Source: Arenibacter hampyeongensis
GTDB taxonomy: Bacteria > Bacteroidota > Bacteroidia > Flavobacteriales > Flavobacteriaceae
Assembly (NCBI RefSeq): GCF_002909255.1
Contig: NZ_PIOB01000002.1
Location: forward strand, 682,001 to 746,000
Length of the DNA: 64,000 nucleotides
Reading direction: 5' to 3'
Below are positions 3,404 through 30,184 of this stretch, one piece after another. The position numbers and the translations under genes are program-made. Numbering within the stretch: position 1 is the stretch's first letter; the number at the start of each line of letters is the position of its first letter. The notes under the pieces are model-generated. The model was given only the letters and a program-made list of their open reading frames with translations, made no database searches and was not told the DNA's origin.

Positions 3404-4045
3404 ATGAAATCAAATAAATATTTGGACGACATATCAGAAATCAAAAATATGATGAGCCGTTCGTCACGTTTTATCTCCCTCAGTGGCCTGTCCGGAATAC
3501 TGGCGGGCATCTATTCCCTTATAGGTTTTGTTATTGCCCAGTCCAGGATCAAGATCTATTTAGAGCCAAAAGAGGTACTGGAATCCACCCAACCCATTGC
3601 TATCAATACCGCACAATTGTCCATTGAACTCTTTACTATTGCAATTGTTGTCATAATAATGGCAACAATTACAGGAATCCTGTTATCTATTCGAAAAGCC
3701 AAACAAAGCGATGAAAAAATATGGGATGTTTCCAGTAAACGGTTGGCTGTAAATTTTTTGATTCCTTTGGTAACTGGCGGCATTTTTTGCATAGCCCTGC
3801 TTCAAGAAAACCATGTAGGCCTAGTGGCCCCGGTCACACTTATCTTTTATGGATTGGCATGTGTCAATGCCAGTAAATACACTTTGGGGGACGTACGGTA
3901 TTTAGGTTATGCCAATATCCTAATAGGTTTAATTGCCACCCAATTCACGGGATACGGATTGTATTTTTGGGCTTTGGGCTTTGGAGTGTTCCACATATTT
4001 TATGGCACACGGATGTATTTAAAATTCGACATAAAAAAGATTTGA
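3404..4045 (+). CDS. Multi-pass membrane protein, unknown function
   Basis: Protein of 213 residues with about six hydrophobic segments (roughly residues 25-47, 70-95, 115-133, 137-155, 162-180 and 183-205) after a short charged N-terminus. I recognise no enzymatic motif. It is the first gene of a unit with a winged-helix regulator whose probable TTG start overlaps this gene's TGA stop, followed by a CreD-type protein. This order suggests an envelope-stress or signal-sensing module in which the membrane protein might influence the regulator; that is inference. The ATG at 3404 is favoured because a promoter and palindrome lie directly before it. Confidence 0.75.
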   Translation: MKSNKYLDDISEIKNMMSRSSRFISLSGLSGILAGIYSLIGFVIAQSRIKIYLEPKEVLESTQPIAINTAQLSIELFTIAIVVIIMATITGILLSIRKAKQSDEKIWDVSSKRLAVNFLIPLVTGGIFCIALLQENHVGLVAPVTLIFYGLACVNASKYTLGDVRYLGYANILIGLIATQFTGYGLYFWALGFGVFHIFYGTRMYLKFDIKKI

Positions 4046-4332
4046 GCATTATAAACAACATTAACAAAGCATTTGATCACCGAATAAAATTGGGTATCAT
4101 GTCCATTCTTATGGTGAACGACTATGCCGATTTTAATACGCTAAAAGAGCTTTTGGGCATTACTGACGGTAATTTGGCCAGTCATACCAAGTCTCTTGAA
4201 AAGGATAAATACATAAAAGTAGAAAAGCAATTTATTGGACGAAAACCCAATACAAGGTATTCCGTTACGGCATTTGGGAAATCAGCTTTTAATAAACATA
4301 TTGATGCGCTAGAAAAGCTTATTGGGAGATAA
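4042..4332 (+). CDS. Winged-helix transcriptional regulator
   Basis: Small MarR/ArsR-like DNA-binding protein, about 96 residues from a TTG start. The region FDHRIKLGIMSILMVN through FNTLKELLGITDGNLASHTKSLEK is the HTH with recognition helix, and GRKPNTRYSVTAFGK is the wing, as in the flavobacterial family fused to no sensor domain. I place the start at TTG 4042, whose last two bases form the TGA stop of the upstream gene, giving translational coupling. An in-frame ATG at 3967 would put 25 extra residues deep in the upstream gene and lacks homology. Likely ligand is unknown. Probable targets are the two ACTTTG...CAAAGT palindromes at 3379 and 4354. Confidence 0.8.
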   Translation: MSIINNINKAFDHRIKLGIMSILMVNDYADFNTLKELLGITDGNLASHTKSLEKDKYIKVEKQFIGRKPNTRYSVTAFGKSAFNKHIDALEKLIGR

Positions 4333-4353
4333 CAAATATTTTTTTATCATTTC

Positions 4354-4370
4354 ACTTTGAAAAACAAAGT
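4354..4370. promoter_or_regulatory. Operator-like palindrome, copy 2
   Basis: ACTTTG-AAAAA-CAAAGT followed by ACTTTT lies 23 bp before the creD ATG. It repeats the palindrome at 3379-3395 with three central changes. TCACTTTG inside it is one base from the TAnnTTTG promoter consensus, so operator and promoter would again overlap. Confidence 0.6.
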
Positions 4371-4392
4371 ACTTTTAAATAACAATTGAAAA

Positions 4393-5742
4393 ATGGAAAC
4401 AAAAAAACAAAAAATTGGAAATTGGTTCAAAACCTCAATTACTGCAAAAATGCTGGTCGTAGGGTTTATATTCCTAGTACTCCTAATTCCCTTGAACTTT
4501 GTTCACGAACTAATTAAGGAACGCGAAGTAAGACAGGCCGAAGTAATTCAGGAAATTAATGAAAAGTGGGGTAAGGAGGTCATACTTTATGGACCGATCA
4601 TAAAAATTCCCTATAAGATATATATAGAGGAAAAAACTTTTGACGAAAAAACAAAATCATTCCTCAAAACTTATGAAGAAATCATACGTTATGGTTATTT
4701 TTTTCCTAAAGCACTGAACATAAATACTGATGTCGATACCAAACAATTGGAAAGAGGTATATATGAATCTGTTGTCTTCACCTCTAATCTCAACTTTGAA
4801 GGAAGCTTTGGTAATTTTGATTTTTCTTCACAGGAAATTCCCGATAATGATATCCTTTGGCAAAAGGCAACGATATTATTTAAAACATCCAATCTCAAAG
4901 GTATTAGAAATGAAGTCAAGGTTAAATTAAACCAAAAGGATTACACCTTAAAACCAATATTCGATGAAGCCTATATGAGCACCTTGGAATCTGACTTTTT
5001 AACGGCATTTGTCGATCAAAAAAGGCACGACCCGGCATTTTCAATGCGTATAAAAATAAACGGGAGTCAAGGGCTACGATTTATACCTATTGGCCAAGAA
5101 ACATCCGTAAAAATGAAATCAGATTGGCATTCTCCAAGCTTTAGCGGAAACTTCCTACCAAATGACGATACCAAAACCATTTCCAAGAATGGTTTTGAAG
5201 CCCAATGGCAAATTTTGGAAACCAACAGACAGTTTGGTCAGCAATTTTTTAATCAACTACCCGATTTGAATAGTTATTCTTTTGGAGCCGATTTAATAAT
5301 CCCCGCAGACGATTATCAAAAAACAGACAGAACAAGCAAATATGGTTTCATGATTATAGGGCTTACACTTTTGGTATTTCTATTAATACAAATAATCAGT
5401 AAAATTGACATACATCCCTTTCAATATATGATGATCGGTTTGGCATTAGTCATGTTCTATACCTTGCTCATCTCCATTTCTGAGCATCAAAATTTTCTAA
5501 GGGCATACCTTATTGCGGGTACAGCCGTTGTTGGCCTTATCACCATTTATTCCAAAACCATTTTGAAACAATCAAAATTCCCGTTACTCATATTTGGTTC
5601 TTTGACCATACTATATTCGTTCATATTTGTGATTATACAACTGGAAAATTATGCACTATTGGTGGGAAGTATTGGATTGTTCATAATCCTGGCCATAGTA
5701 ATGTTTACCTCCAAAAAAATAGATTGGGCCAACACAGATTAA
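4393..5742 (+). CDS. creD: CreD-family inner membrane protein
   Basis: Protein of 449 residues with the CreD plan. There is one N-terminal membrane helix at about 18-38, a large periplasmic domain from about 40 to 315 starting with the family motif EINEKWGKEVILYGPIIKIPY, then five or six helices to the C-terminus. In enterobacteria and relatives CreD belongs to the CreBC stress regulon and affects envelope properties; the molecular activity is not known. Here it follows a winged-helix regulator instead of a two-component pair, with its own copy of the operator-like palindrome. The gene ends 13 bp before a bidirectional hairpin. Confidence 0.9.
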   Translation: METKKQKIGNWFKTSITAKMLVVGFIFLVLLIPLNFVHELIKEREVRQAEVIQEINEKWGKEVILYGPIIKIPYKIYIEEKTFDEKTKSFLKTYEEIIRYGYFFPKALNINTDVDTKQLERGIYESVVFTSNLNFEGSFGNFDFSSQEIPDNDILWQKATILFKTSNLKGIRNEVKVKLNQKDYTLKPIFDEAYMSTLESDFLTAFVDQKRHDPAFSMRIKINGSQGLRFIPIGQETSVKMKSDWHSPSFSGNFLPNDDTKTISKNGFEAQWQILETNRQFGQQFFNQLPDLNSYSFGADLIIPADDYQKTDRTSKYGFMIIGLTLLVFLLIQIISKIDIHPFQYMMIGLALVMFYTLLISISEHQNFLRAYLIAGTAVVGLITIYSKTILKQSKFPLLIFGSLTILYSFIFVIIQLENYALLVGSIGLFIILAIVMFTSKKIDWANTD

Positions 5743-5754
5743 AAAAGTCCTAAT

Positions 5755-5796
5755 TAAAAACACCGTTATTAAGGTTCCAATTAACGGTGTTTTTTA
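5755..5796. terminator. Bidirectional terminator between creD and the Lys1-like gene
   Basis: Stem CACCGTTA (5761-5768) pairs with TAACGGTG (5782-5789), flanked by A and T runs so that it works on both strands. It serves the convergent genes on either side. Confidence 0.85.
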
Positions 5797-5816
5797 CATT
5801 TCCGTTAGAGCTCCAA

Positions 5817-7022
5817 TTATACTTTACCGTCTACATAATCCTGTAAATACGCATACCTCTTAGTGAGTTTTCCGTTTTTTGTCATTCTTGCCCTTTCCAA
5901 AACCCCATCTTTATCGCCGTTAAAAAAGGCGGGGATTACATTTTTAACAAAGGCATCCCCAAAGCCCAAGCTGGCATCACGTGGCAATTCGCAAGGTAAA
6001 TTATCCACGGCCATCACCGCAATGGCTTTCGGGTCCTTATAATCTATTTCCGACTCTGTAATGGGGTCGTATCCATATATTGGTTCCGCTATTGTACTGG
6101 CTCTAAGGGTTGTGGCTACAGGGCCATTGATATCGCAACTAACATCGGCTACGACCTTTATTCCAAAATTAGGGTGCTTCGTATCTTCTCGGGTAAAAAG
6201 ATAAGGGGCACCGTCGCCGTAAAAATGCCCGGCGATATAAAAATCCGTTACTTCTGCAAAACGAAAAAAATTGGATTTATAATCTCCAGGGTGTGCAAAA
6301 AAATCGGCCTTATTTCCCCTTACTCCATCCTTGCGCCTATTATATTCAGAGGCGTCAATTTGGCAATAGACCGGTTCCTGAAAAATTTCGGTTAGGTAAT
6401 CAGAAACCTTAACTTTCTTTATACCCATTGCATCCAACATCTCCTTGGCACCATTGCCAACCCTTCCCCTACCCGTCAGGAGAATTTTTATGTTGGGGAG
6501 TATCAGCTTACGTAGCTCCGATATCAAAGCTTGCTGGTCTACCAATGTTTCCGCCTTTGGCAGCTGATATAAACCAAATTTAAGTCCATAAGCCCTAAAG
6601 CCGTTGTAGGCCCCAACTATTCCGGCATATCTGCCAAATGCCACCAAACGCTGACGTGAGGAATTGGTGATTACCTCGTGATCGTACAATTCAATATTCC
6701 TATCCAAGACTGCTTTTAGCAAATTTCTATTGTAGGGCTGCTTTTTAATGGTATGGGAAAAAAAGAAGTATTGTTTGTTTGGGATCAATTGATCGATCGG
6801 CACTTCTTTGACACCGATAAGCACATCGCAATTTTCCATTTCCGACGCCACTTGAAATCCCTTTGACTCATACTCCTTATCGGTAAAGACTCTTATGGGA
6901 GATGGCTCCACTATTATTTTAGCGTCTTTGAATTTAGCCACAATCTGTGTACAGGCCTCCGGTGTTAGGACCACACGACGATCGGGTGGGTTTTTACGTT
7001 CCCTAATAATTCCAAATTTCAT
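5817..7022 (-). CDS. Alanine dehydrogenase/PNT-family NAD-dependent dehydrogenase, Lys1-like
   Basis: Soluble 401-residue enzyme of the alanine dehydrogenase/transhydrogenase fold. The N-terminal KFGIIRERKNPPDRRVVLTPE is the substrate-domain signature with the conserved RRV(A/V)LTP motif, and ILLTGRGRVGNGAKEMLDAMG at about 185-205 is the NAD-binding Rossmann glycine loop. VADVSCDINGPVATTLRAST near 295-315 is the segment shared with lysine-forming saccharopine dehydrogenases. The closest functional class is therefore saccharopine or alanine dehydrogenase, but no lysine or alanine pathway genes are adjacent and the substrate stays open. It is transcribed alone, towards creD, and shares a terminator with it. 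Confidence 0.8.
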   Translation of the reverse strand: MKFGIIRERKNPPDRRVVLTPEACTQIVAKFKDAKIIVEPSPIRVFTDKEYESKGFQVASEMENCDVLIGVKEVPIDQLIPNKQYFFFSHTIKKQPYNRNLLKAVLDRNIELYDHEVITNSSRQRLVAFGRYAGIVGAYNGFRAYGLKFGLYQLPKAETLVDQQALISELRKLILPNIKILLTGRGRVGNGAKEMLDAMGIKKVKVSDYLTEIFQEPVYCQIDASEYNRRKDGVRGNKADFFAHPGDYKSNFFRFAEVTDFYIAGHFYGDGAPYLFTREDTKHPNFGIKVVADVSCDINGPVATTLRASTIAEPIYGYDPITESEIDYKDPKAIAVMAVDNLPCELPRDASLGFGDAFVKNVIPAFFNGDKDGVLERARMTKNGKLTKRYAYLQDYVDGKV

Positions 7023-7116
7023 AAATAAATATTTATAACTTTTTGAAGTGATATAGTTGTAAATGTAACAAATGACAAGTTGACAAGCAAAACTTTTTTT
7101 GGAATAGTTTTTGGAG

Positions 7117-7124
7117 TACCTTTG
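7117..7124 (+). promoter_or_regulatory. -7 promoter element TACCTTTG
   Basis: Exact match to TAnnTTTG. It lies on the strand opposite to the preceding gene and points into the structured element 7126-7268, not into a protein gene. A TTTG at 7098-7101 is a possible but close-spaced -33 element. Confidence 0.5.
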
Positions 7125-7125
7125 C

Positions 7126-7268
7126 CGACCGCGTTAGGGATAGAGGCGAGTACCCCGCCCGAACGTGCCGTTAGGTACGGTGAGGCGTGTACGGCCGAAA
7201 GCCCGACCTTTTTTTGATACCTACAAGGTTTTGAAAACCTTGCAGGAAGAAAAAAGGGAACGCCCAAG
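7126..7268 (+). ncRNA. Candidate structured small RNA
   Basis: Non-coding stretch of about 140 nt, more GC-rich than other intergenic DNA. It has GGGATAG at about 7137, AAAGCCCGACC at about 7198, a long hairpin (7220-7246, CCTACAAGG...CCTTGCAGG), then GGGAACGCCC at about 7256. CCTTTTTT before the hairpin can pair with AAAAAAGG after it, closing an outer stem. A TACCTTTG promoter element ends two bases before it. I recall similar GGGATAG...GCCCGACC...GGGAACGCCC elements from other flavobacteria; whether this is the catalogued Flavo-1 motif or another family I cannot check. The antisense ORF across it is not credible. Confidence 0.5.
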
Positions 7269-7330
7269 TAACGATAATAAAGTTCATTGAAAAAAAAGAT
7301 GAGAGAATATTTCTGCCGATGGCGGGATTC

Positions 7331-7350
7331 AACCTGCCGGCAGGCAGGTT
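7331..7350. repeat. Inverted repeat AACCTGCC-GGCA-GGCAGGTT
   Basis: Perfect 8-bp arms around GGCA. It contains the CCTGCCGGCAGGCAGG string that I recall as a common dispersed repeat in Bacteroidota genomes. A second inverted repeat, GGTACGC/GCGTACC at 7358-7374, follows directly, just before the tmRNA 5' end. Confidence 0.7.
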
Positions 7351-7386
7351 CGATTACGGTACGCCTAGCGTACCTATCTCATTGAA

Positions 7387-7783
7387 GGGGCCGACTGGTT
7401 TTGACAGCGAGACCAATTGGAATGTAAGCATGTCGAGCGCTGGGCTACAGCTCGTTAATCTCATTTTCCACACTTTTTAATTGGCGAAAATAATTACGCT
7501 CTTGCCGCTTAATCCGAATCACAGTAGGATTTAGCCTCGTCCCTACAAGGTAGGGAAGCGAGATGTTTCTGGGAAGCCTTTGTTGACGGCGTCCCAATCA
7601 GAAGCACCATCAAAGTCAATATAAGGGTAGTGAAGCTTCGGCACTATCACCAAAACTTAAGAAGATAAGTGTGTATTAGGCTGTTTCTGGTCAGGTGCAC
7701 ATCGAAAATTAATTAGGAACTAAGCATGTAGAAGGCATTGTAATTGCTTGTTTGGACGAGGGTTCGAATCCCTCCGGCTCCAC
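7387..7783 (+). ncRNA. ssrA: Transfer-messenger RNA
   Basis: tmRNA rescues ribosomes stalled on broken mRNAs with SmpB. The 5' strand GGGGCCG (7387-7393) pairs with CGGCTCC (7775-7781), making the tRNA-like acceptor stem. The T arm GGGTTCGAATCCC lies at 7760-7772. The tag reading frame is at 7483-7512 and reads GENNYALAA followed by TAA, matching the known Bacteroidota tag type. After the discriminator A7782 only one C is encoded, so the CCA end must be completed by nucleotidyltransferase. A strong hairpin terminator follows at once. Size of about 397 nt is normal. Confidence 0.96.
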
Positions 7784-7785
7784 TT

Positions 7786-7815
7786 AAAAAAGGCTACCCA
7801 AAAGGTAGCCTTTTT
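7786..7815 (+). terminator. tmRNA terminator
   Basis: AAAAAAGGCTACC (7786-7798) pairs with GGTAGCCTTTTT (7804-7815), a strong intrinsic terminator three bases after ssrA. Confidence 0.9.
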
Positions 7816-8111
7816 GCGTTCGGTCAGGTGAATCGAAGGCCAGCGCGTCAGCTCGCGCCTTACTAAAAAAGTCCACGGGACATTTTCTAAACGCTCGGCC
7901 GTCTCCGGCTCCACGATCACCCACAACAGCGTTGTGGATCAAAACATATAAAACCCAACAAGTTTACTTGATTGGGTTTTGTGGTTTTTAGATACCCATT
8001 TTAAAAAGATAGGCAGTAGTAATTGCAGAAAGGAATCTTTTGGAAGTAACGCATATAATGTTCGGGCTTCACTTCAAAAAACTACCTGCACCGGCTTTGT
8101 TCGTCCCCTTT
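7816..8111. repeat. Repeat-rich gap after ssrA with copied tmRNA 3' end
   Basis: No gene is visible in these 296 bases. CTCCGGCTCCAC from the tmRNA 3' end (7772-7783) recurs exactly at 7903-7914. Between the copies lies a GC-rich hairpin, GCGCG/CGCGC at 7843-7847/7854-7858. Downstream are CCACAAC/GTTGTGG (7921-7937) and a terminator-like AAAACCCAA/TTGGGTTTT pair (7950-7980). It could be a dispersed REP-like element or the scar of an element that used ssrA as attachment site. Confidence 0.55.
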
Positions 8112-9182
8112 TTATAAGGGTTGTAGTACGGTTTCTTCAACGGCAAAAAGCTTAATGGGTTTGTCCTTCCCTAATACAGGGATTCCACCAACTTGCTTCT
8201 TTTTATATATTACGGGCAAATTGATCCGTTTCAGCAAGGGCTCCGACACCAAAATATCCAAGCCCAGTTTTTGACATTCCTTTTCTATAAAAGCCGTTTC
8301 ATAGAGGGCTTCCCCGTGAAATACGATCTGGCTTTTCACATTTCCTACTTCTCCCCGAATTACCTTTCCCATATGTAAACTTGCCCTAAATTTTGGCACT
8401 CTACGGTATTTGTGAAGATATTTTTCCCGTTGCTTTTCAGTTTCATTTTTTACATTATAATAACAGCGTATGCAATTGGCATTTTTCAACCCATTTTTAA
8501 CGGACCAGCTGATCACTACCTGATCCCCCACATATCTATATATTTCACCATAGTTCGCTACTATACATTTGGTTACATCAAAATAAAACTCCTTCAAAAA
8601 CTTGTAATACCCCAATGACCCCATTTTTTCGGCCAAGGGAGTAGAGGATTTCTGATCTAAAAACATAAATATCCGTTCTTCTTCACAGGGGGAATGGTAT
8701 TTTCCGGTCAGAAAATTTACAAACACACCCTGCCCCATTTTTCGACTCATTTCCCTGGTAAAAATGATGATTATAACCGAAAATAAGGAATACAATACAA
8801 TGACCTTAAAATCTCCCTCGTACAAAAATGTCTGAAATCTTTGGGAATAGAAATTCTCGATCATATTTGTATTATAATACCAACTTTCATTAAAATTAAT
8901 CAGCAGGACAATAAGAAAAATAAAAAGCAAGGAGTACACCGTTGATTTTGTGATTACAGTTATAAGAAAGGAAAACTTTCTATTCTTGGGTTTAAAGGCA
9001 TAAAATTCAATCACACCAACCAGAAATCCGCCGATCAAACCAATAGAGACACCGTGCACATATGCAATGGGTCTAGCAAATCCATTTGCCACCAGAGGAT
9101 AGAACAAACCCAATACCAAACCAGCCATGGTCACATAAATAATGGCGTATCGCCCCCTTTCATTTTCCAATGTAAATTTCAT
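8112..9182 (-). CDS. Membrane class III nucleotide cyclase, metal-binding (C1-like) subunit
   Basis: Protein of 356 residues with four predicted N-terminal membrane helices (about 12-32, 44-64, 72-96, 126-144) and a cytoplasmic class III cyclase domain from about 168. Both metal Asp are present: Asp176 in FMFLDQKSST and Asp220 in YRYVGDQ. The transition-state residues are lost: in HGEALYETAF the Asn position is Tyr294 and the Arg position Phe298. The purine-selecting Lys position is Arg216, so ATP or GTP preference cannot be read. Alone it should be inactive. The upstream paralogue has the opposite pattern, and its TGA overlaps this ATG by four bases (ATGA), which points to a coupled heterodimer. 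Confidence 0.85.
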   Translation of the reverse strand: MKFTLENERGRYAIIYVTMAGLVLGLFYPLVANGFARPIAYVHGVSIGLIGGFLVGVIEFYAFKPKNRKFSFLITVITKSTVYSLLFIFLIVLLINFNESWYYNTNMIENFYSQRFQTFLYEGDFKVIVLYSLFSVIIIIFTREMSRKMGQGVFVNFLTGKYHSPCEEERIFMFLDQKSSTPLAEKMGSLGYYKFLKEFYFDVTKCIVANYGEIYRYVGDQVVISWSVKNGLKNANCIRCYYNVKNETEKQREKYLHKYRRVPKFRASLHMGKVIRGEVGNVKSQIVFHGEALYETAFIEKECQKLGLDILVSEPLLKRINLPVIYKKKQVGGIPVLGKDKPIKLFAVEETVLQPL

Positions 9183-10258
9183 ACCACTTCCAAATTGATG
9201 ATGGATTCTTCATTTATGTAGTACAATTCCAAGTCCTTTTGCTTCCCTTTTAAACCGATTTCCCCACAACTGGTGGAATAATAAATTTTAGGCAAGGTGA
9301 GTCGATCGTTAAGATCGGCAGAAATTAAGAGGTCCTTTTCCAAATCTTCACATTTTTCCTTTATCCGTGAAGTGGTGTTCATCACATCCCCAAAAAAGAC
9401 AATGGTTCCCTTAATTTCGCCCAACTCACCACGAACCACTTTTCCAATATGATAGCCTGCAATTAACTTCGGTACAAACCCATAAGTGGTGTAGTAATGT
9501 TCACTATTTTCCTTTATCTTATTTTTGGAATTATAAAATGTGCGGATACAGTTGGCGTTCTGTATGCCTTCATTAGGTTTCCACGAGACCACAACCAAGT
9601 CATCTACATATTCATAGATAGTTCCCTTATGTTCTAAAATTGGTTTGGTGATGTCGTAAAAGAAATCCTCTAGGAATCTATGAAAGTGCAGGCGCCCAAT
9701 CTTTTTCACTATTTGATCGGAATAGCGAACACTTAAGAACATGAAAATTCGCTCCACCTCGGAAGGCTGGTAGTACTTTCCCGTAACGATGCCCCACATA
9801 ACGTCTTTCCCCATTTTACGAATCATAAGTATGCTAAAATTGATTATAAATGCCAAAGCCACAGTGTAGGCAATTGCCACCTTAAAATCTTCCTTAAAAA
9901 TGTAGCGTTTAAAATCTTCACTGGCCAATACATTCAAAAAACCCATATCCAGTCTAATCATTCGTGAAATCAACAATACAAAAAAAACGATGGACGAAAT
10001 GGAACCTATATATAGAAAAGTGCGAATTAGTACTAGGGACATAAATTTTAATCTTCGACCTTTCTTGGGAAATACATAAAACTCGAGATAGGAGATAAGT
10101 GCTCCAACCAAAATGCCTATTATAAAGGTATTTACGTGCGGATATAAAACCCCAAAGCCGTCTGAGAACGCGGAATAAGTAATGCCAAGCAGGGCTCCCA
10201 TAAGAACAATAATAGTTATGTCCCTATTAATTTTTTCCTGAAGTATGTTCCGTTCCAC
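9179..10258 (-). CDS. Membrane class III nucleotide cyclase, Asn/Arg-bearing (C2-like) subunit
   Basis: Paralogue of the following gene, 359 residues, same four-helix anchor and same domain numbering. The first metal Asp is replaced by Ser176 (FMFLSVRYSD) and the usual Gly-Asp is Asp219-Asp220. Both transition-state residues are kept: Asn294 and Arg298 in FFGDVMNTTSRI. The Lys position that selects the purine is Glu216, which in eukaryotic enzymes is associated with guanylyl cyclases, though the second selector position is not canonical. The gene is intact and full length, so decay is unlikely. It is first of a two-gene unit and overlaps the next gene by ATGA. It is divergent from a LytTR regulator 481 bp away. 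Confidence 0.85.
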   Translation of the reverse strand: MERNILQEKINRDITIIVLMGALLGITYSAFSDGFGVLYPHVNTFIIGILVGALISYLEFYVFPKKGRRLKFMSLVLIRTFLYIGSISSIVFFVLLISRMIRLDMGFLNVLASEDFKRYIFKEDFKVAIAYTVALAFIINFSILMIRKMGKDVMWGIVTGKYYQPSEVERIFMFLSVRYSDQIVKKIGRLHFHRFLEDFFYDITKPILEHKGTIYEYVDDLVVVSWKPNEGIQNANCIRTFYNSKNKIKENSEHYYTTYGFVPKLIAGYHIGKVVRGELGEIKGTIVFFGDVMNTTSRIKEKCEDLEKDLLISADLNDRLTLPKIYYSTSCGEIGLKGKQKDLELYYINEESIINLEVV

Positions 10259-10739
10259 CGCAATTTCGTTTAGTCCTTTTTTTGATTTATTTCACTGTCT
10301 ATCCGATTAAAATATGCCAATTGGTTCGCTGTGTTTGATAGGCCATGTCACTGCCAATTGAGCATCCAAATTCTCAATTACATTTGGGGGTGAATATCGG
10401 ATGGCCTTACGCGGCACTAGATCTATAGCGTTTGAAAACATTAATTCCTTAAAAATGCACCGTGGTCAAATCCACCCACATTTTTGCCTAAGTCACTTAA
10501 AAGGTTATGACACCGGTCATTATTCATATATAAATTTAGTCTTTATTCATCAAAAGTTGCCAATAGTGTCCTAAAAAGAAATAGGGCCAAAATCGGCTTA
10601 AAACAAATAAACTCAACGAAATGCCTAAACCACATATATCTCCACTTACACAACATTTAATGCACCGTTCACATCATTTTTGGCCGCCTAGAAGGCCATT
10701 TAAGTACCTTGAACTTAAATTAAACGAGGATTACACATT
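10259..10739. other. Intergenic region between cyclase pair and LytTR regulator
   Basis: 481 bp between divergent units, with no ORF or RNA gene that I can support. GGCC-GCCTAGAA-GGCC (about 10681-10696) is a small inverted repeat. TACCTTG at about 10706 is a near match to the -7 consensus for the LytTR gene. The rest is AT-rich without clear signals. Confidence 0.5.
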
Positions 10740-11432
10740 ATGAAATTGAGAAGTATAATCGTAGACGATTCGTCTATGCAGCGGATTGCAATAGCCAAAT
10801 TAGTGAACAATCACCCAAACTTGGCAATGGTGGCCCAGTACAGCAATGCCATTGAGGCAAAAAAAGGCATCAAAGATAACGACATCGACCTTATTTTCCT
10901 TGACGTGGAAATGCCCATTATCAATGGTTTTGATCTTCTGGAATCCTTGGACAACCCACCGCAAGTAATTCTGATTACTGGTAATCCTGACTATGCCCTT
11001 AAGGCTTTTGATTACGACGTAACCGATTACCTTCACAAACCCATTACTTTGGCCCGTTTTGATGCTTCCGTAAAAAGAGCTGTGACCAAATACGAGCAGA
11101 TGCATAGGGTGACAGAAGAAGAGGAATATATCTTCGTAAAAAGCAACCTTAGGCAGCGCAAAGTGGTTCTTAACGACATAAAATGGATCGAAGCTCTTGG
11201 CGATTATATTAAATTGGTGACGAACGAAGGCAATGTAGTTATTCTTTCCACAATGAAATCTTTTGAGCAAAAGTTGCCGAAGGACAAATTCCTAAGGATA
11301 CACAAATCCTATATCGTGAATTTGGAAAAAGTTGAAAAGTTCAATAGTAAAAATGTTGAACTTGAAGGAAGACAGGTTCCATTGAGCAGAAACAAAAAAA
11401 CCGAACTGGCGGAGGCGCTTTATAACTTTTAA
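10740..11432 (+). CDS. LytTR-family response regulator
   Basis: Two-component response regulator of 230 residues. The receiver domain (1-120) has the acidic pair in IIVDDSS, phospho-acceptor Asp55 in LIFLDVEMP, Thr in LITGNPDYA and Lys in YLHKPI. The LytTR DNA-binding domain spans about 128-230 (EEYIFVKSNLRQRKVV...KFLRIHKSYIVN...VPLSRNKK). Such proteins usually pair with LytS/YpdA-type histidine kinases, but no kinase is in the window. Its position opposite the cyclase pair may be coincidental or may indicate control of that operon. A strong terminator follows at 11532. Confidence 0.92.
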   Translation: MKLRSIIVDDSSMQRIAIAKLVNNHPNLAMVAQYSNAIEAKKGIKDNDIDLIFLDVEMPIINGFDLLESLDNPPQVILITGNPDYALKAFDYDVTDYLHKPITLARFDASVKRAVTKYEQMHRVTEEEEYIFVKSNLRQRKVVLNDIKWIEALGDYIKLVTNEGNVVILSTMKSFEQKLPKDKFLRIHKSYIVNLEKVEKFNSKNVELEGRQVPLSRNKKTELAEALYNF

Positions 11433-11531
11433 AATTATTACTATCATCCAATTCGCGTTCGGCACATAATCTCTAATGGCAGTGCCCTTTTGATTGGTAT
11501 GAAAATGATAACTTAGCGATAAAAATCAATT

Positions 11532-11578
11532 AAATAGGTCAAGCACCAATCAAAATTAATGCTTGACCTATTTTTTTT
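11532..11578 (+). terminator. Intrinsic terminator after LytTR regulator
   Basis: AAATAGGTCAAGCA (11532-11545) pairs perfectly with TGCTTGACCTATTT (11560-11573) and runs into eight T. Confidence 0.9.
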
Positions 11579-11579
11579 G

Positions 11580-12293
11580 GACCGGGCAGGTGTCGTTGGC
11601 AACGAAGATAATTCCAGTATTTTTTCTAATTCTTAATTCAATTCTTCCCTCGTAGTGGGCAGACATAATCGGGGCTACTATTTTCTAGTGGATATCGCCC
11701 CATATAATTCTTTATTGCCTTTTCCCAAAAGGATATATACGCTAACAATGCTTCATGAATTTTGTTGTTTTTGATTATTGACTGGAAAGGACGGTCAGTT
11801 TTAATTGCGGATCAGAAGCATTTGGGGACACCTCAATTAATCTCCACGACTACAAAATTAGACTTATATATAAAAGGTCTCCTATTTGGTGAACACGAAA
11901 ATTAGGGCATTTAGCAATCAAATTTTAAATTATTAAGAATTTGGGCACAGTCTCTTCCTCTTCACCACATGTATATATTCAGCTTGTAATATAGTTTTAT
12001 GATATGAGTAGCCCAAGATTGTTATTGGGCCATCCAATTAAGATGAAATCACTTCACTTTGGAATTGGAAATGGGCGGTAATTAAAGCTCATGATGGTGC
12101 TAGGGAATATTCTATGATAAACTAAAACCCTAATTAACTCCACCAGAGCAGGATAAAATTGGTTAACTACCCAGAAGCATTTACTACCATTCATACAATA
12201 CTAACAACCAATAATACAATTCCTACAAAATACTCAAATATGAAGATATATCTTAATAGTATCTGTAGGAAAAATAATAAAAACAGAAGGCTT
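11580..12293. other. Long intergenic region
   Basis: About 710 bp with no convincing gene. An open frame starting at 12159 continues into the lipoprotein downstream, but its first 45 codons have no signal sequence or coding look. Nothing else identifiable. Confidence 0.5.
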
Positions 12294-12653
12294 ATGAAAC
12301 TTTATAAAATAGTTTTTCCGACGCTCGTACTTTTTTTAAGTATAACCCAATCCTCCTGTGTTAGTACGCGTATAGAAGCGAGCCCCTATCAAGACAGTGT
12401 TGAAAATCTCGAATGCAGGAAAGAATCAAGTTGGAGCTATTATTGGGGATTAAAACAAAAACGCATTGATGCCAATCCAGAAGTAGCCGGAAACGCATGT
12501 CCATGTAGGGAAGGTGCTTTGTCCTGGGTGGTTGTAAATACCTCCTTCACCGATTTCCTGCTTAGTTTGGTTACCCTGGGTATTGTAAATCACAGAACGG
12601 CAACCTATGGATGTGCCAGACCTCAAAATGGCGAAGGTGATCTGGATAATTAA
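12294..12653 (+). CDS. Bor-like small lipoprotein
   Basis: Predicted lipoprotein of 119 residues when started at ATG 12294, which has AGAAGG just before it and is followed directly by a signal peptide ending in QSSC. An ATG at 12159 would bury the signal peptide behind 45 residues and is rejected. The middle (WSYYWGLKQKRIDANPE) and the end (FTDFLLSLVTLGIVNHRTATYGCA) resemble the Bor/Iss family pattern of a W-x-x-GL segment and a TLGI-x-x-x-RT motif. Four extra Cys could form disulfides. Bor-type proteins sit in the outer membrane, and some confer serum resistance in enterics; no such role is claimed here. It is 11 bp before an oxidase gene and likely co-transcribed. Confidence 0.65.
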   Translation: MKLYKIVFPTLVLFLSITQSSCVSTRIEASPYQDSVENLECRKESSWSYYWGLKQKRIDANPEVAGNACPCREGALSWVVVNTSFTDFLLSLVTLGIVNHRTATYGCARPQNGEGDLDN

Positions 12654-12664
12654 AAAAAACACTA

Positions 12665-14239
12665 ATGACACCAAAAGGCATAGACCCACTTCCCATTCAA
12701 AAATGGACCAATAAACACGAGAATTTCACTCATGACCTGGTTCCGAATGCTTCTTTTAAGCTCTGGAACCCACCGGGCCAAAAACATCGCGAGCGTTATT
12801 TGGCCACAACCAAGAATTTTCAATGGCTGATCAACCATGCCCTGAACAACAATCTTAAATTGCGTGCCATGGGGAGCGGATGGTCCTTTACAAAAATCGG
12901 TGTAACAGATGGTGGATTAATCGATACGGCTTCATTGAATTTTTCATTTCCTATTAGCGAAAATTATACTAATACCAATTATGTAAAGCAATCGGAAGAT
13001 CTTTACTTTTTACAATGTGGCGCCATCATACACGAAGTGAATACACGATTAGCAGCGAAAAACCCACAAAGGTCAATAAAGGCATCAGGGGCGAGTAATG
13101 GACAAACTATTGCTGGTGCCCTATCCACGGGCACTCACGGGGCGGCAATTAAGGTGGGTGCAATTCCCGATTTTGTGGTGGGGCTACATATAATCACGGG
13201 CAGCAACAAACACATTTGGCTGGAACGGGCCTCCTACCCCGTTGCCTCCACAGAATTTGTGACTTGGCTGGATGCGGATCTGGTTAAGGATGATGCATTG
13301 TTCAATGCGGCCCTTGTCAGTTTTGGAAGTTTTGGTTTCATCCATGGTGTTATGATAGAGACGGAACCCCAATTTTTGCTTACCGAACACAGAGAAGGTC
13401 CTATAGCCTATAATGATATTTTGAAAAATGCCATGAAAACTTTGGATTTCACTGGTCTAAATCTACCGGGAACAGGAATTAATGGAGCTATTTACCATTT
13501 TGAGGTACTATTCAATATCCATGATTTTGAACCCAATAATCCTGCTAAAGGAGCCTTCGTGAAATACATGTTCAAAAAGCCATTTCAATTACCCCACATA
13601 CCCTTACAGCGCAATAATGATTTCACCTATGGTGATGATCTTTTAGGAATCATTTCTACGGTTTTGGACAAGTTACCGGGGTCCGGTTTATTGATTCCGG
13701 CAATGGTAAACTTGATGTTCGGCCTTGCTTTTAAACCGGAACCACCTCGCGTTGGAACAATTCGTGAAATGTTCAATTACACCAAATTTAGAGGTAAAGT
13801 AGCCAGTGCAGCTATGGCAATCGACATACAGGATTCTCCCAGAGCCGTAGAACTCATTGTAGAAGTGAACAAGCAGAAACCATTTCCAGGTGGACTTTCA
13901 CTGCGTTATGTAAAAGGAACCCAGGCCACCTTAGGGTTCACCAAGTTTCCAAATACTTGTGTATTGGAAATGGATGGTGTGGATGGCCAACCAGCAAGGG
14001 ATTTTTTTGATATGGTCTGGAATAAATTTGAGCAGGAAGGAATTGCTTACACCCTTCATTGGGGCAAGATCAATTTTAATTTGAACGAAACACGCCTGAA
14101 TCAAATGTACGGGAACACTAAGGTCCAAGCATGGGTAGATGCGCGAAACGAATTGCTTGACACCCCTGTAATGCACATATTTACCAATCCATTTATAGCG
14201 CAATGTGGGTTGGCTAAAATTAACGGGGCTATTGTGTGA
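12665..14239 (+). CDS. FAD-linked oxidase of the VAO/aldonolactone oxidase family
   Basis: Protein of 524 residues with an N-terminal FAD-binding domain of the vanillyl-alcohol/aldonolactone oxidase superfamily. LKLRAMGSGWSFTKIGVTDGG near 66-86 and the motif GASNGQTIAGALSTGTHGA near 142-160 contact FAD. The C-terminal half would be the substrate cap, similar to cholesterol-oxidase or gulonolactone-oxidase-like proteins. These enzymes oxidise alcohols or lactones, often with oxygen as acceptor; the substrate is unknown. There is no clear signal peptide. It follows the Bor-like lipoprotein by 11 bp and precedes a subtilase by 258 bp. Confidence 0.82.
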   Translation: MTPKGIDPLPIQKWTNKHENFTHDLVPNASFKLWNPPGQKHRERYLATTKNFQWLINHALNNNLKLRAMGSGWSFTKIGVTDGGLIDTASLNFSFPISENYTNTNYVKQSEDLYFLQCGAIIHEVNTRLAAKNPQRSIKASGASNGQTIAGALSTGTHGAAIKVGAIPDFVVGLHIITGSNKHIWLERASYPVASTEFVTWLDADLVKDDALFNAALVSFGSFGFIHGVMIETEPQFLLTEHREGPIAYNDILKNAMKTLDFTGLNLPGTGINGAIYHFEVLFNIHDFEPNNPAKGAFVKYMFKKPFQLPHIPLQRNNDFTYGDDLLGIISTVLDKLPGSGLLIPAMVNLMFGLAFKPEPPRVGTIREMFNYTKFRGKVASAAMAIDIQDSPRAVELIVEVNKQKPFPGGLSLRYVKGTQATLGFTKFPNTCVLEMDGVDGQPARDFFDMVWNKFEQEGIAYTLHWGKINFNLNETRLNQMYGNTKVQAWVDARNELLDTPVMHIFTNPFIAQCGLAKINGAIV

Positions 14240-14497
14240 AAAATGTAGGGTATATAGGTTTACTTACCTATGAATTAATAGGAAGTTGTAGAGTTCGAAA
14301 TGGCCAATGATGTAAAAATTTAACAATAGCGCAAAGTCGGTGCAGGCTTTAGGGCCATTATCCACTCCCTGCCTTAAGTATTATTTTGAGAATCGTATGA
14401 ACCTATGTTCTGGATTCCAATAGGCGCCATTTAAATACCAAACAATGGTATGAAGTAATTAGATTTTTAAAATATTAGCATTTAAACCTCAATCGCC
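14240..14497. other. Gap between oxidase and subtilase
   Basis: 258 bp without a gene. TACCA-AACAA-TGGTA near 14440 is a short inverted repeat; no clear terminator or promoter was seen. Confidence 0.4.
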
Positions 14498-17008
14498 ATG
14501 GCAAAAAACATCAAATCCGACGAAAGGCTATACACTTACCGAAATGGTAAAAAAGTATACCTAAAAAAAGAAAGCGACCAATTTGTTGTAAGGGCTCTGC
14601 CAGCAGAATTGGAGAAAATGGGAATTACCAAAGATGTAGAAAAAGTTTCCTCTGCCTCTTCTAGGGTCAAAGTAAAGAGCAATAAACTCGATTCCGAAAT
14701 TGCAGATATGCGGAAGGAAGCGGTTACACACCATGCCTATAAACAAGAAGCCAATAATGAGGAGTTTCTTATAACCGATCGTATCATTGTCACCTTTAAA
14801 AAGTCGGTCAGCAATGAACAGCTCAGCAAGTTTATAGCAAAATATGCATTGATACTTATGACCAAATATTCTGACAGGGAATATTTGTTACAGCTAACCG
14901 ATCAAACCGGCATGAATCCGGTAAAATTGGTGGTACTTATTAATGAATCTGAAAGCAGGCTTGTTGAATTTTGCGAACATGATCTTAACAAACGGATGAC
15001 GATGTCCAATGTAAATGTACCTGTAGATCCAAAATACGTACAGCAATGGCATTTACATTCACGTATGACCAACACCTCATTTGACCCCCGATCCTCAGCT
15101 AACTGCGAAGCCGCCTGGAACCTTTTAAGCAATTATGGCAGTCAGGATGTGGTTATTGCCGTGACCGATGACGGATGCAAATTGGACCATCTGGATTTTG
15201 ACTCCATCAATAAATTTGCTCAATGGGGATACATGTCCGGAAGTAGTTTGATCACGAGGGATACTATCGGTGGTAACCCGCAGAATATGTACCAGTACGG
15301 GTCTAATCATGGTACTAGCTGTAATGGTGTAGTCGCTGCTGAAATTGATGGTGTGTTGACCGTTGGGGCTGCTCCCGGTTGCAGGCTTTTACCCATTAAA
15401 TGGGAATCAAGCGGCCCTGGCCTGTTCATTAGTGACAGCAAAATGATGACGGTGCTTACTTTTATTGGTGACAAAGCCGACGTGCTATCCAACTCCTGGG
15501 GCTCGTCACCATCGTTTGTCTTTGCATTGAATGTTATCAATAAGATTACCCAATTGGCCCAAAACGGTGGAAGACGTGGAAAGGGAATTATTTTTTTGTG
15601 GGCGGCCGGAAATGAAAACTGCCCCATCAAATATTCGGGAAACAAAGATATTCCTTTCGATAATGGATTTAACGCATCCGGAAATTGGGCAGGAGTGCAA
15701 ACGTCAAGGATTTTTGAACATAATTTAGTCGGTGTTCCCGGTGTTATGCATATTGCGGCCTTGGCCAGCAATGCCCAGCGCAGTCATTATTCCAATTACG
15801 GAGAAGGCATTTCACTATGCGCACCTTCAAGCAATTCTCATGAATATTGGCGCATGGCCGTTACCGGGCTTGGAATTACGACAACAACGGGACGTTCACC
15901 TTTCTTCGATTCAGAATTTGGAGGCACTTCCAGTGCAACTCCGCTGGTGGCAGGAATAGCCGGGTTGGTTATTTCAGCAAACCCAGACCTCACTGCCATA
16001 GAGGTTGTTTCTATTCTACAAAGAACAGCTGCCAAAGACCTGAATATGACCTCATATCCCAAGACGCCACCAGCACCTTATGACCCTGATACATCTTGGG
16101 ATATTTCACCGATAAGCCCATGGAATAATGGCAATTTCAACAACTCAGGCAATCCGGATGGCAGCTGGAGCGGTTGGTTCGGATTCGGTAAAGTGGATGC
16201 CTCCGCAGCAGTAGATGAAGCGTTGCGACTAAAAGGAGGTAGTGCCAGCAATGAAGAAATAGTCACTCAAACTTCGGCGCCGGCAAAAGTAATTCCAGAC
16301 AATAATCTTGCCGGCATAACAGATGTTATCCATATAACGGGAGCGGGAACGGTCGCCTCCATTAAAGTTGGCCTGAATATTACCCATACTTATGTTGGTG
16401 ACCTAGTAATAAAGATTACTTCCCCTAAAGGAACCTCGGTTATATTACACAACCGTAATGGAGGAGGTGCGGACAATATCAATACAATCTACGATAGGCA
16501 AAATATTGCCCCGCTATCCAATTTCAACGGAGAAAACGCTAATGGAAACTGGACACTTGCCGTTGCAGATCTTGGCAATTTGGATACCGGAAAATTAAAT
16601 AGCTGGACATTGCACGTTGGTTCCGTTCAATCACAGACTATCATTCTAGAGGAAGCTCCTGGCATTCAGATCCCGGATAATAACCCCATTGGTATAGAAC
16701 GTACTTTAATATCAACTGCCGAAGGCACTATCAACAACACTGAAGTAGGAATGGATATTACTCATACATACATCAACGACCTGATTATAAACCTGGTTTC
16801 GCCAAAAGGCACTGAAATCAACCTACACAACAAGATAGGAGGCTCTGCCGATAACATTATAAAAGTGTATGACTTTAATAACAATTTGAAATTAAGGTCA
16901 TTGAAAGGTGAACAAATTCAAGGAAACTGGAAACTGAAAATATCGGACGTGGCCGGGCAGGATGTTGGAAAATTGAATAAGTGGTCTATAAAAATTAATA
17001 AGCAATGA
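14498..17008 (+). CDS. Subtilisin-like (S8) protease with two P domains
   Basis: Serine protease of 836 residues. After an N-terminal region of about 170 residues comes the peptidase domain with catalytic Asp224 (AVTDDG), His271 (SNHGTSC), oxyanion Asn372 (AAGNEN) and Ser478 (GGTSSATP). Two P/homo-B domains follow at about 605-710 and 725-835, each starting with IPDNN and containing THTY-x-x-DL and a GxWxLxxxD pattern, as in kexin/furin-type convertases. No Sec signal peptide is visible on the MAKNIKSDERL start, and the C-terminus is a P domain, not a type IX sorting domain, so the export route is unclear. Residues 88-170 (ITDRIIVTFKKS...) resemble an inhibitor-type propeptide. Confidence 0.9.
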   Translation: MAKNIKSDERLYTYRNGKKVYLKKESDQFVVRALPAELEKMGITKDVEKVSSASSRVKVKSNKLDSEIADMRKEAVTHHAYKQEANNEEFLITDRIIVTFKKSVSNEQLSKFIAKYALILMTKYSDREYLLQLTDQTGMNPVKLVVLINESESRLVEFCEHDLNKRMTMSNVNVPVDPKYVQQWHLHSRMTNTSFDPRSSANCEAAWNLLSNYGSQDVVIAVTDDGCKLDHLDFDSINKFAQWGYMSGSSLITRDTIGGNPQNMYQYGSNHGTSCNGVVAAEIDGVLTVGAAPGCRLLPIKWESSGPGLFISDSKMMTVLTFIGDKADVLSNSWGSSPSFVFALNVINKITQLAQNGGRRGKGIIFLWAAGNENCPIKYSGNKDIPFDNGFNASGNWAGVQTSRIFEHNLVGVPGVMHIAALASNAQRSHYSNYGEGISLCAPSSNSHEYWRMAVTGLGITTTTGRSPFFDSEFGGTSSATPLVAGIAGLVISANPDLTAIEVVSILQRTAAKDLNMTSYPKTPPAPYDPDTSWDISPISPWNNGNFNNSGNPDGSWSGWFGFGKVDASAAVDEALRLKGGSASNEEIVTQTSAPAKVIPDNNLAGITDVIHITGAGTVASIKVGLNITHTYVGDLVIKITSPKGTSVILHNRNGGGADNINTIYDRQNIAPLSNFNGENANGNWTLAVADLGNLDTGKLNSWTLHVGSVQSQTIILEEAPGIQIPDNNPIGIERTLISTAEGTINNTEVGMDITHTYINDLIINLVSPKGTEINLHNKIGGSADNIIKVYDFNNNLKLRSLKGEQIQGNWKLKISDVAGQDVGKLNKWSIKINKQ

Positions 17009-17420
17009 TTTAATTGAAAGGATTTTGGAAATAGCCTGCCCTAAAGTTAAATTCTCATTTCCACAATTAATAACTGGCAATTTGTTCAATTTTTTTTCCA
17101 ATAAGTAGCTAATCCATAGTCTGGGCATAATGGCGTTCAAACTACCGGAAGTGGTCTATGTAAAAAAAGTATCTGCAATTGTTAAAAAAAGAAATAACCA
17201 TTAATTCAAACGGAAACTATCTCATGCAGTGTTTAAAGGGAGTTATGGCAAAACATTCTTAAGGTCGCCCATTTTTTACTAATGGATTCTTTTCTAGTAC
17301 CACAAAATAAGGGAGACCTTGCAAAGCTAGATTTACCTAAACTATTCAGGTTAGGTTCTGGACTTATTGCCCGCATATTTGGATAAAATAAAACACGTGG
17401 AATAATAGTAACATGACAAA
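17009..17420. other. Intergenic region between convergent genes
   Basis: 412 bp between the S8 protease and a CheY-like gene on the other strand. I see no gene or clear terminator hairpin with a T run. Confidence 0.4.
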
Positions 17421-17831
17421 TTAGGCGGCGCCCTCTGTCTCTATGGTCTTGAACAGATCTGCAAGTATGGAATCGGACAATGGCTTTACTATAAAGTCTT
17501 TTACTATATCATAGGTATGGGCCTTTTCAATATCCTGATTGTCTATTGAAGAACTCACTATATATACTCTGGGCTTATTTTTAAGAGACAATTTTACAAA
17601 TTCGTCCAAGAATTCCCATCCGTCCATAATTGGCATATTTAAGTCCAAGAAAATGACATCTGGTAATTGTTGGCCATTTTTAACCATTGAGGTGAGATTT
17701 TCCAAAGCCTCTTTTCCGTCCTCGTGCACAATGACGGACGAACCAAAACAGCTGTTGTAGTTTAATAAAACCTTTGTCCCATAAACAAAAATGGGATCAT
17801 CATCTATAATGCATACTGTCTCAATCTTCAT
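17421..17831 (-). CDS. CheY-like single-domain response regulator
   Basis: Receiver domain without an output domain, 136 residues from the ATG at 17831. IETVCIIDDDP carries the acidic triad, DVIFLDLNMP the phospho-acceptor Asp, IVSSSID the Ser/Thr position and FIVKPL the Lys. An upstream in-frame ATG at 17858 adds MCLFTLFKV without homology, so the shorter start is preferred, with AAGG five bases before it. Single-domain regulators of this type act by protein-protein contact or as phosphorelay intermediates. No kinase is nearby, so the partner is unknown. Confidence 0.88.
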   Translation of the reverse strand: MKIETVCIIDDDPIFVYGTKVLLNYNSCFGSSVIVHEDGKEALENLTSMVKNGQQLPDVIFLDLNMPIMDGWEFLDEFVKLSLKNKPRVYIVSSSIDNQDIEKAHTYDIVKDFIVKPLSDSILADLFKTIETEGAA

Positions 17832-18239
17832 AACCTTAAAAAGTGTAAAAAGACACATACAAATCGCCGACCAACTATTTTCAGAATATGATTTAGGTAG
17901 ATAACATACAACCTACTATACCTTTGGAAATATTGCTAAAGATTTGGTAGTCCTTATTGGGGTAAGTCTATATTTTTAAAAAGTAATATTTTTCCTATAA
18001 TTTTTATTTTTTCAAATGTAAGGAAAAATTATTAACCAAAATTATATTTTACTGTTCCAACCATCTATTCTCCAATGGATCAACCATCTAAAAGAAAGTG
18101 GCGCACTACTATAGTTACTTGATTATTTAGGAATGGTCAAAGGTGTCCGTTCACATACACCCCCATCGTTTACAATAATTTTTTAAATTATCCAATCGCT
18201 GGTTAAAATTCCCAAAGCAACCCTATTTATAGATTCATT
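17832..18239. other. Intergenic region
   Basis: About 400 bp of AT-rich DNA with runs of A and T near 17975-18020. No gene, RNA or clear regulatory element recognised. Confidence 0.4.
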
Positions 18240-29831: not shown

Positions 29832-30184
29832 CTGTTATATAAATTGTTTTTCATCAACCTAAGTGCATAATAATTAAGGGTTGGTCCGGCGTTGTTATAA
29901 TTTCGCACCTTCCGTTACCTAAATTCAATTAAAATGGAAACTACATCTATTTAATTTGTATACCTAAATTTATGACATGGTATTAAATCCATTTTGCTTA
30001 AAAAGTACAGAAGCTTGTTAAGGCCAATTTCAAATATAATCTGAATATAAGCGGCACAAAATTACACAATTAAATTGGGTTGGTTTCCAAAACATGGAAG
30101 TTAAAACAAATAAGAGGCCGCCACTTATTGTAAAAAAATAGAAGTAAAACTTTATGTCTATATAGTATCTTTACCAAAAATAAA
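29832..30184. other. Divergent promoter region trkA / menaquinone methyltransferase
   Basis: 353 bp between divergent genes. TATCTTTA near 30166 is one base off the -7 consensus and lies shortly before the methyltransferase start. Nothing else is recognisable. Confidence 0.45.

Follow-up and report, generated by a model that had tools for sequence, protein, structure and literature searches.

The window analysed here, a stretch of 64,000 nucleotides from the genome of Arenibacter hampyeongensis, carries on its reverse strand two overlapping genes (P0002 and, downstream of it, P0001) encoding proteins related to class III nucleotide cyclases. The same arrangement exists at two other loci, in genomes G215 and G397. 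At all three loci, which belong to three genera of Flavobacteriaceae, the two genes share an ATGA overlap and show complementary losses of active-site residues. The features of the window's pair, with the state of each residue at the three loci, are:

9179..10258, reverse strand: upstream gene P0002, 359 aa, GTG start; a four-helix membrane anchor, then a class III cyclase domain
8112..9182, reverse strand: downstream gene P0001, 356 aa, ATG start; a four-helix anchor, then a class III cyclase domain
9179..9182, reverse strand: ATGA start/stop overlap of P0002 and P0001, common to both other pair loci
9731..9733, reverse strand: upstream Ser176, replacing the first metal Asp (S, S and H across the three upstream proteins)
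9611..9613, reverse strand: upstream Glu216 at the base-selecting position (3/3 upstream proteins), where the solved light-regulated cyclase has Lys197
9599..9601, reverse strand: upstream Asp220, kept (3/3 upstream proteins)
9377..9379, reverse strand: upstream Asn294, kept (3/3 upstream proteins)
9365..9367, reverse strand: upstream Arg298, kept (3/3 upstream proteins)
9242..9244, reverse strand: upstream Lys339 of the K/R-G-K motif, kept (3/3 upstream proteins)
8655..8657, reverse strand: downstream metal Asp176, kept (3/3), followed by the phosphate loop K-S-S-T at residues 178-181
8535..8537, reverse strand: Arg216 of the downstream chain, where the putative dead site has its base-selecting position (Arg in 3/3)
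8523..8525, reverse strand: downstream metal Asp220, kept (3/3 downstream proteins)
8301..8303, reverse strand: downstream Tyr294, replacing Asn (Tyr in 3/3) and closing the 13-residue run 282-294
8289..8291, reverse strand: downstream Phe298, replacing Arg (F, H and M across the three downstream proteins)

HMMER alignments to the solved light-regulated adenylyl cyclase 5mbg/5mbk, which we take to be bPAC, place residue 176 on its first metal Asp, 220 on the second, 294 on the Asn and 298 on the Arg. The shared residue numbering of P0001 and P0002 therefore reflects homology, and we assume for these four positions the catalytic roles of the residues that they match (two metal Asps, Asn and Arg); upstream Lys339 is, by its position, presumably the triphosphate Lys. 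An earlier note, made from the DNA letters of the locus, had reported these residues at 176, 220, 294 and 298 in both proteins and an ATGA overlap between the genes; all of the residues proved correct, they fall on the catalytic Asp/Asp/Asn/Arg of 5mbg/5mbk, and the overlap lies at 9179-9182, where it may provide for equal production of both proteins.

Division of active-site residues between the two chains

P0002 matches the Pfam cyclase family PF00211 with 29.0 bits, above the cut-off of 21.9, and P0001 with 14.7 bits, below it; the two proteins are 38% identical over residues 13-351, and neither has a family in NCBIfam at E up to 0.1. Four hydrophobic helices can be recognized in each protein, as the earlier note had proposed for the anchors, and the AlphaFold models, computed for single chains (pLDDT 93.2 for P0001 and 92.5 for P0002), agree with them. 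The P0001 model superposes on the catalytic domain of 5mbg with a Z score of 20.9 (175 residues, 2.2 A) and that of P0002 on CyaC (1wc1_C) with a TM score, normalised by target, of 0.84; the best solved matches of the models include OaPAC, the 5m/5mb light-regulated cyclase entries, CyaC and soluble guanylate cyclase. Each chain is thus predicted to have the class III cyclase fold.

The active site of class III cyclases lies between two subunits, at the dimer interface, where one subunit gives the two metal Asps and the phosphate loop and the other the base-selecting residue and the transition-state Asn, Arg and Lys. The full set of D/D, Asn and Arg is absent from either chain of the pair and complete across P0001 and P0002. 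At 3/3 loci the upstream gene lacks D176 and has N/R, and the downstream gene has both Asps and lacks N/R. The D-x-K-S-S-T motif is intact in 3/3 downstream and 0/3 upstream proteins, and D291, N294, R298 and the C-terminal G-K occur together in 3/3 upstream and 0/3 downstream proteins. Judged by these residues, P0001 is C1-like, retaining the metal and phosphate half, and P0002 is C2-like, retaining the transition-state and base half. The partition is imperfect, since upstream Asp220 remains, as does the downstream G-K at 338-339 in the window protein alone. In that sense, the view of the earlier note that the two proteins have lost opposite halves of the site holds for the complementarity of the losses, with one nuance in their extent: Asp220 is present in both proteins, and what the upstream one has lost is the first Asp and the adjoining phosphate loop.

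Very probably the two proteins form an obligate heterodimer, a class III nucleotide cyclase anchored in the membrane, with one composite site. The downstream chain would supply the metal and phosphate set only and the upstream chain the transition-state set only, so that a heterodimer would have one complete site and each homodimer none; the live site would consist of downstream D176, D220 and K-S-S-T with upstream N294, R298 and K339, and its mirror image would be dead and could take on the role of a regulatory pocket. Heterodimer formation, cyclase activity and the regulatory role of the dead site are what we infer from the sequences. The residues are unlikely to result from chance or sequencing error because two other genera show the complementary losses as well. 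The lost positions drift (S/S/H at upstream 176 and F/H/M at downstream 298) and the retained ones are invariant, the strongest argument that the sequences offer for reading the pair as an enzyme and not as two decoys.

In the downstream chain, the half facing the putative dead site is not simply decaying: residues 282-294 form a run of 13 identical residues across the three downstream proteins; overall, the downstream protein of G397 is only 36% identical to that of the window. No run of at least 12 arose in 20000 shuffles of the invariant positions of the domain, a rough guide only, as shuffling ignores that conserved positions cluster in motifs. Arg216 is likewise specific to the downstream proteins of the pair. 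Both the 282-294 run and Arg216 would be accounted for by a pocket with a regulatory role or by a surface turned towards the partner.

Relatives in the four-helix family

The proteins of the pair belong among single-gene four-helix cyclases of Bacteroidota that have the same length, anchor and domain order and are about 24-42% identical to the window proteins. At E <= 1e-5, P0001 has matches in 62/198 genomes, and P0002, among the matches listed, in 148/397 genomes at E <= 1e-20; there are six PF00211 matches in all in the window's genome. The relatives compared here were read at the loci that the searches gave, at 60 more places among the matches listed and in 20 regions from the phylum sample, some of them already among the former; from these, fragments shorter than 300 aa (8/161 and 4/44) and identical or contained copies were excluded. 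The 187 other full-length relatives that result all keep D176, D220 and R298 (187/187 each) and keep N294 in 185 cases, and no lone half with losses exists among them; the 12 excluded fragments show no loss at any catalytic position that they cover. Single-gene members differ from the pair in their complete D-D-N-R (185/187) and in Gln216 (183/187), and could act as homodimers. The co-occurrence of the D and N/R losses, which the earlier note had proposed as a check, is found at 3/3 pair loci, with losses of D176, D220 or R298 in 0/187 relatives elsewhere, and in this sample of relatives the losses of D and R are confined to the pair. The two single-gene relatives with an altered N294 (Ser in L148, 1471-2544; Thr in L258, 2915-3994) keep both Asps and the Arg. 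Another relative (L070, 4472-5565, in G103) lies in two reading frames and is probably a broken gene.

These comparisons bear on the idea that P0001 and P0002 each work as an active homodimer by an uncommon chemistry, one that tolerates Tyr294/Phe298 or Ser176 or that uses a substrate other than a purine. The Ser and Thr of L148 and L258, in proteins that keep R298, suggest that the Asn may be replaceable, and both window proteins have weak PADLOC matches to Pycsar cyclases (E 2.7e-7 for P0001 and 9.5e-6 for P0002). However, D176 or R298 is lost in none of the 187 relatives and the downstream residue 298 drifts among F, H and M, and homodimers of the catalytic domains of soluble guanylate cyclase have no significant activity (PMC3591389), so that we regard active homodimers as very unlikely. 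The Pycsar cyclase (PycC) is encoded beside a Pyc effector, whereas the pair has weak PycC matches and no effector was found: two neighbours gave no PADLOC match to one, and the Pfam hits of ten ORFs (3404-20663) include none.

Another alternative is that both proteins are pseudocyclases that tune an intact single-gene paralogue, in a dominant-negative or allosteric manner, and do not pair with each other. Intact paralogues are encoded in all three pair genomes (L004 in G000; the full-length L081 and L082 in G397; L075, L076 and L077 in G215) and could pair with either half, and the contact surface of the catalytic domains of human soluble guanylate cyclase is promiscuous (PMC3591389). Such pseudocyclases would not predict the complementary losses seen at 3/3 loci, the retained set in each half is invariant, and we consider this explanation improbable.

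The family includes four more tandem pairs, in G119, G1037, G892 and G927, with D-D-N-R in 8/8 proteins; their genes do not overlap when the first possible start codon is used. These intact tandem duplicates, with copies 40 to about 220 bases apart, are located at:

L069, 4138-6345
L241, 2957-5156
L242, 3069-5295
L237, 1198-3767

Being intact in 8/8 proteins, they illustrate a pair that has lost nothing, and a tandem arrangement by itself does not entail the losses.

Distribution, history and neighbourhood of the pair

Beyond the window, an adjacent overlapping pair was found in G215 and G397 only, and the downstream profile, run against genome contigs, likewise gave two loci. Of 397 genomes of the family, 23 were listed as matching the upstream profile at E <= 1e-65, and only G215 and G397 among them have the pair. 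No further split pair was present among the places examined in the order sample (22/395 genomes matching at E <= 1e-30) or in the phylum sample (45/395 genomes matching at E <= 1e-25); in the family, order and phylum searches up to five candidates were scored per genome, such that weak pairs could escape. The pair occurs in 1/18 genomes of the window's genus and in 1/2 of that of G397, and G215 is the sole searched genome of its genus. Among plasmids, 19 records (20 places, one record having two) contain a relative of P0001 whose match spans no more than 64% of that protein, and in one scan of viral contigs 48 stretches fit a pattern, none of them encoding a relative.

Trees were built from samples of 153 full-length proteins (70/153 and 40/153). 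In the 40-row tree, from which the catalytic columns had been removed, the six pair proteins group together (support 100/100), as do the upstream (100/98) and the downstream ones (97/89), and the clade of each half branches as ((window, G215), G397), which gives mirrored sister clades. The 70-row tree agrees, with SH-aLRT values of 98, 99 and 99, and places the tandem copies of G119 elsewhere. A single duplication before the split of the lineages, followed by joint inheritance or joint transfer, would give such trees. The pair arose within a bacterial four-helix family; it is a member of neither the soluble guanylate cyclases, whose sensor domains it lacks, nor the C1/C2 cyclases, which are single fused chains.

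Between the window and G215, dN/dS is 0.123 for the upstream and 0.112 for the downstream gene, with dS values (1.9 and 2.3) near saturation; against G397 it is 0.21 for the downstream gene, the upstream ratio being not computable. These values point to purifying selection on both genes. They also bear on the possibility of a pair in decay or of residues misread in sequencing. Although the downstream protein scores under the Pfam cut-off and the pair occurs in a single genome of the 18 of its genus, the same kind of losses appears in three separate assemblies with frames open throughout, and a dN/dS of about 0.12 against the nearest pair speaks against decay, which makes this explanation scarcely credible.

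The flanks differ at the three pair loci and a conserved wider operon was not found there. In the window they encode a LytTR response regulator and a protein like alanine dehydrogenase. From our reading of the translations, the flanks in G215 encode an RpiR-type regulator and a symporter; those in G397 encode a type III pantothenate kinase and a LemA-like protein. The LytTR response regulator of the window (10740-11432) is divergently transcribed and absent beside the other two pairs. The patchy distribution and the changing neighbours suggest that the two genes are transferred as a unit. Their overlap, and their staying side by side among differing neighbours, also argue against two pseudocyclases acting on other partners and for the heterodimer. 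The Bacteroidota-type promoter pattern TTTG/TAnnTTTG has four matches in the window against 5.3 expected, none near the pair (the nearest is at 30031).

Known heterodimeric cyclases and the putative substrate

Soluble guanylate cyclase has H-NOX, PAS and coiled-coil domains before its cyclase domain, whereas the pair has four membrane helices, is bacterial and is nested in a family of Bacteroidota; neither P0001 nor P0002 has a Pfam match to H-NOX, PAS or coiled-coil at E up to 1. The likeness lies in the two homologous chains, the division of the site residues between them (3/3 loci for the pair) and the degenerate second site. In the human enzyme, the key active-site residues are divided between the two chains, and a second, pseudosymmetric cavity without key residues may bind regulators (PMC3591389). 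By its sequence features the pair falls outside the soluble guanylate cyclases, whose way of working it should nonetheless share. The earlier note had compared it with the C1/C2 logic of mammalian membrane adenylyl cyclases, in which unequal domains form one live and one degenerate site (PMC8815786). The comparison stands for the live and degenerate sites, but the nearest working parallel is the heterodimeric soluble guanylate cyclase, and mammalian C1/C2 is one fused chain with two six-helix domains whereas the pair consists of two proteins with one four-helix anchor each. The chytrid RGC1/NeoR is, like the proposed pair, a membrane-anchored class III heterodimer and is also obligate; RGC1 and RGC2 keep all known cyclization residues and their partner requirement is ascribed to other domains (PMC8815786), whereas the partner requirement proposed for the pair lies in the active site.

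A 2022 perspective describes class III adenylyl cyclases of bacteria as homodimers and a fused dimeric class III cyclase as unknown in bacteria, and places the duplication followed by divergence into unequal partners in early eukaryotes (PMC9552081). The top listings of the open-access literature on heterodimeric, bacterial class III or flavobacterial cyclases, a scope outside which subscription papers and preprints fall, contain no title about a class III cyclase split between two bacterial genes. The pair would show the step of duplication and divergence taken separately in bacteria, without fusion, and the intact tandem pairs elsewhere in the family indicate that duplication without loss also occurs. 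It offers a small system in which to study the reasons why cyclases become heterodimeric, the way in which a dead site may turn regulatory and the means by which obligate partners stay together.

Concerning the substrate, the pairs of base-selecting residues are Lys/Asp for ATP and Glu/Cys for GTP. Position 216 is Glu in 3/3 upstream proteins (relatives other than those with Gln have Leu in three cases and His in one) and is accompanied at position 287 by V, V or A, a combination that fits neither pair. The second base-selecting position in the 187 single-gene relatives is mostly A, I, V or F, and the textbook rules would not predict their substrate. A triple mutant of bPAC (K197E/D265K/T267G) is its guanylyl cyclase version, bPGC (PMC4569695), and in a fungal cyclase the Glu equivalent to position 216 is the main guanine contact (PMC7384201). 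Upstream Glu216 is thus a weak hint of GTP as substrate, with the balance about even. A bolder reading, which we put forward as tentative and think more doubtful than not, is that the pair is an independently evolved bacterial counterpart of soluble guanylate cyclase. This obligate two-gene membrane heterodimer would convert GTP to cGMP, with upstream Glu216 reading guanine; its dead site (the invariant Arg216 and Tyr294 and the run 282-294) would bind a small regulator, and its two diverged four-helix anchors would each read a signal, making it a coincidence detector. The window's genome has 13 matches to cNMP-binding domains and, because of these, possible receptors for a cyclic nucleotide.
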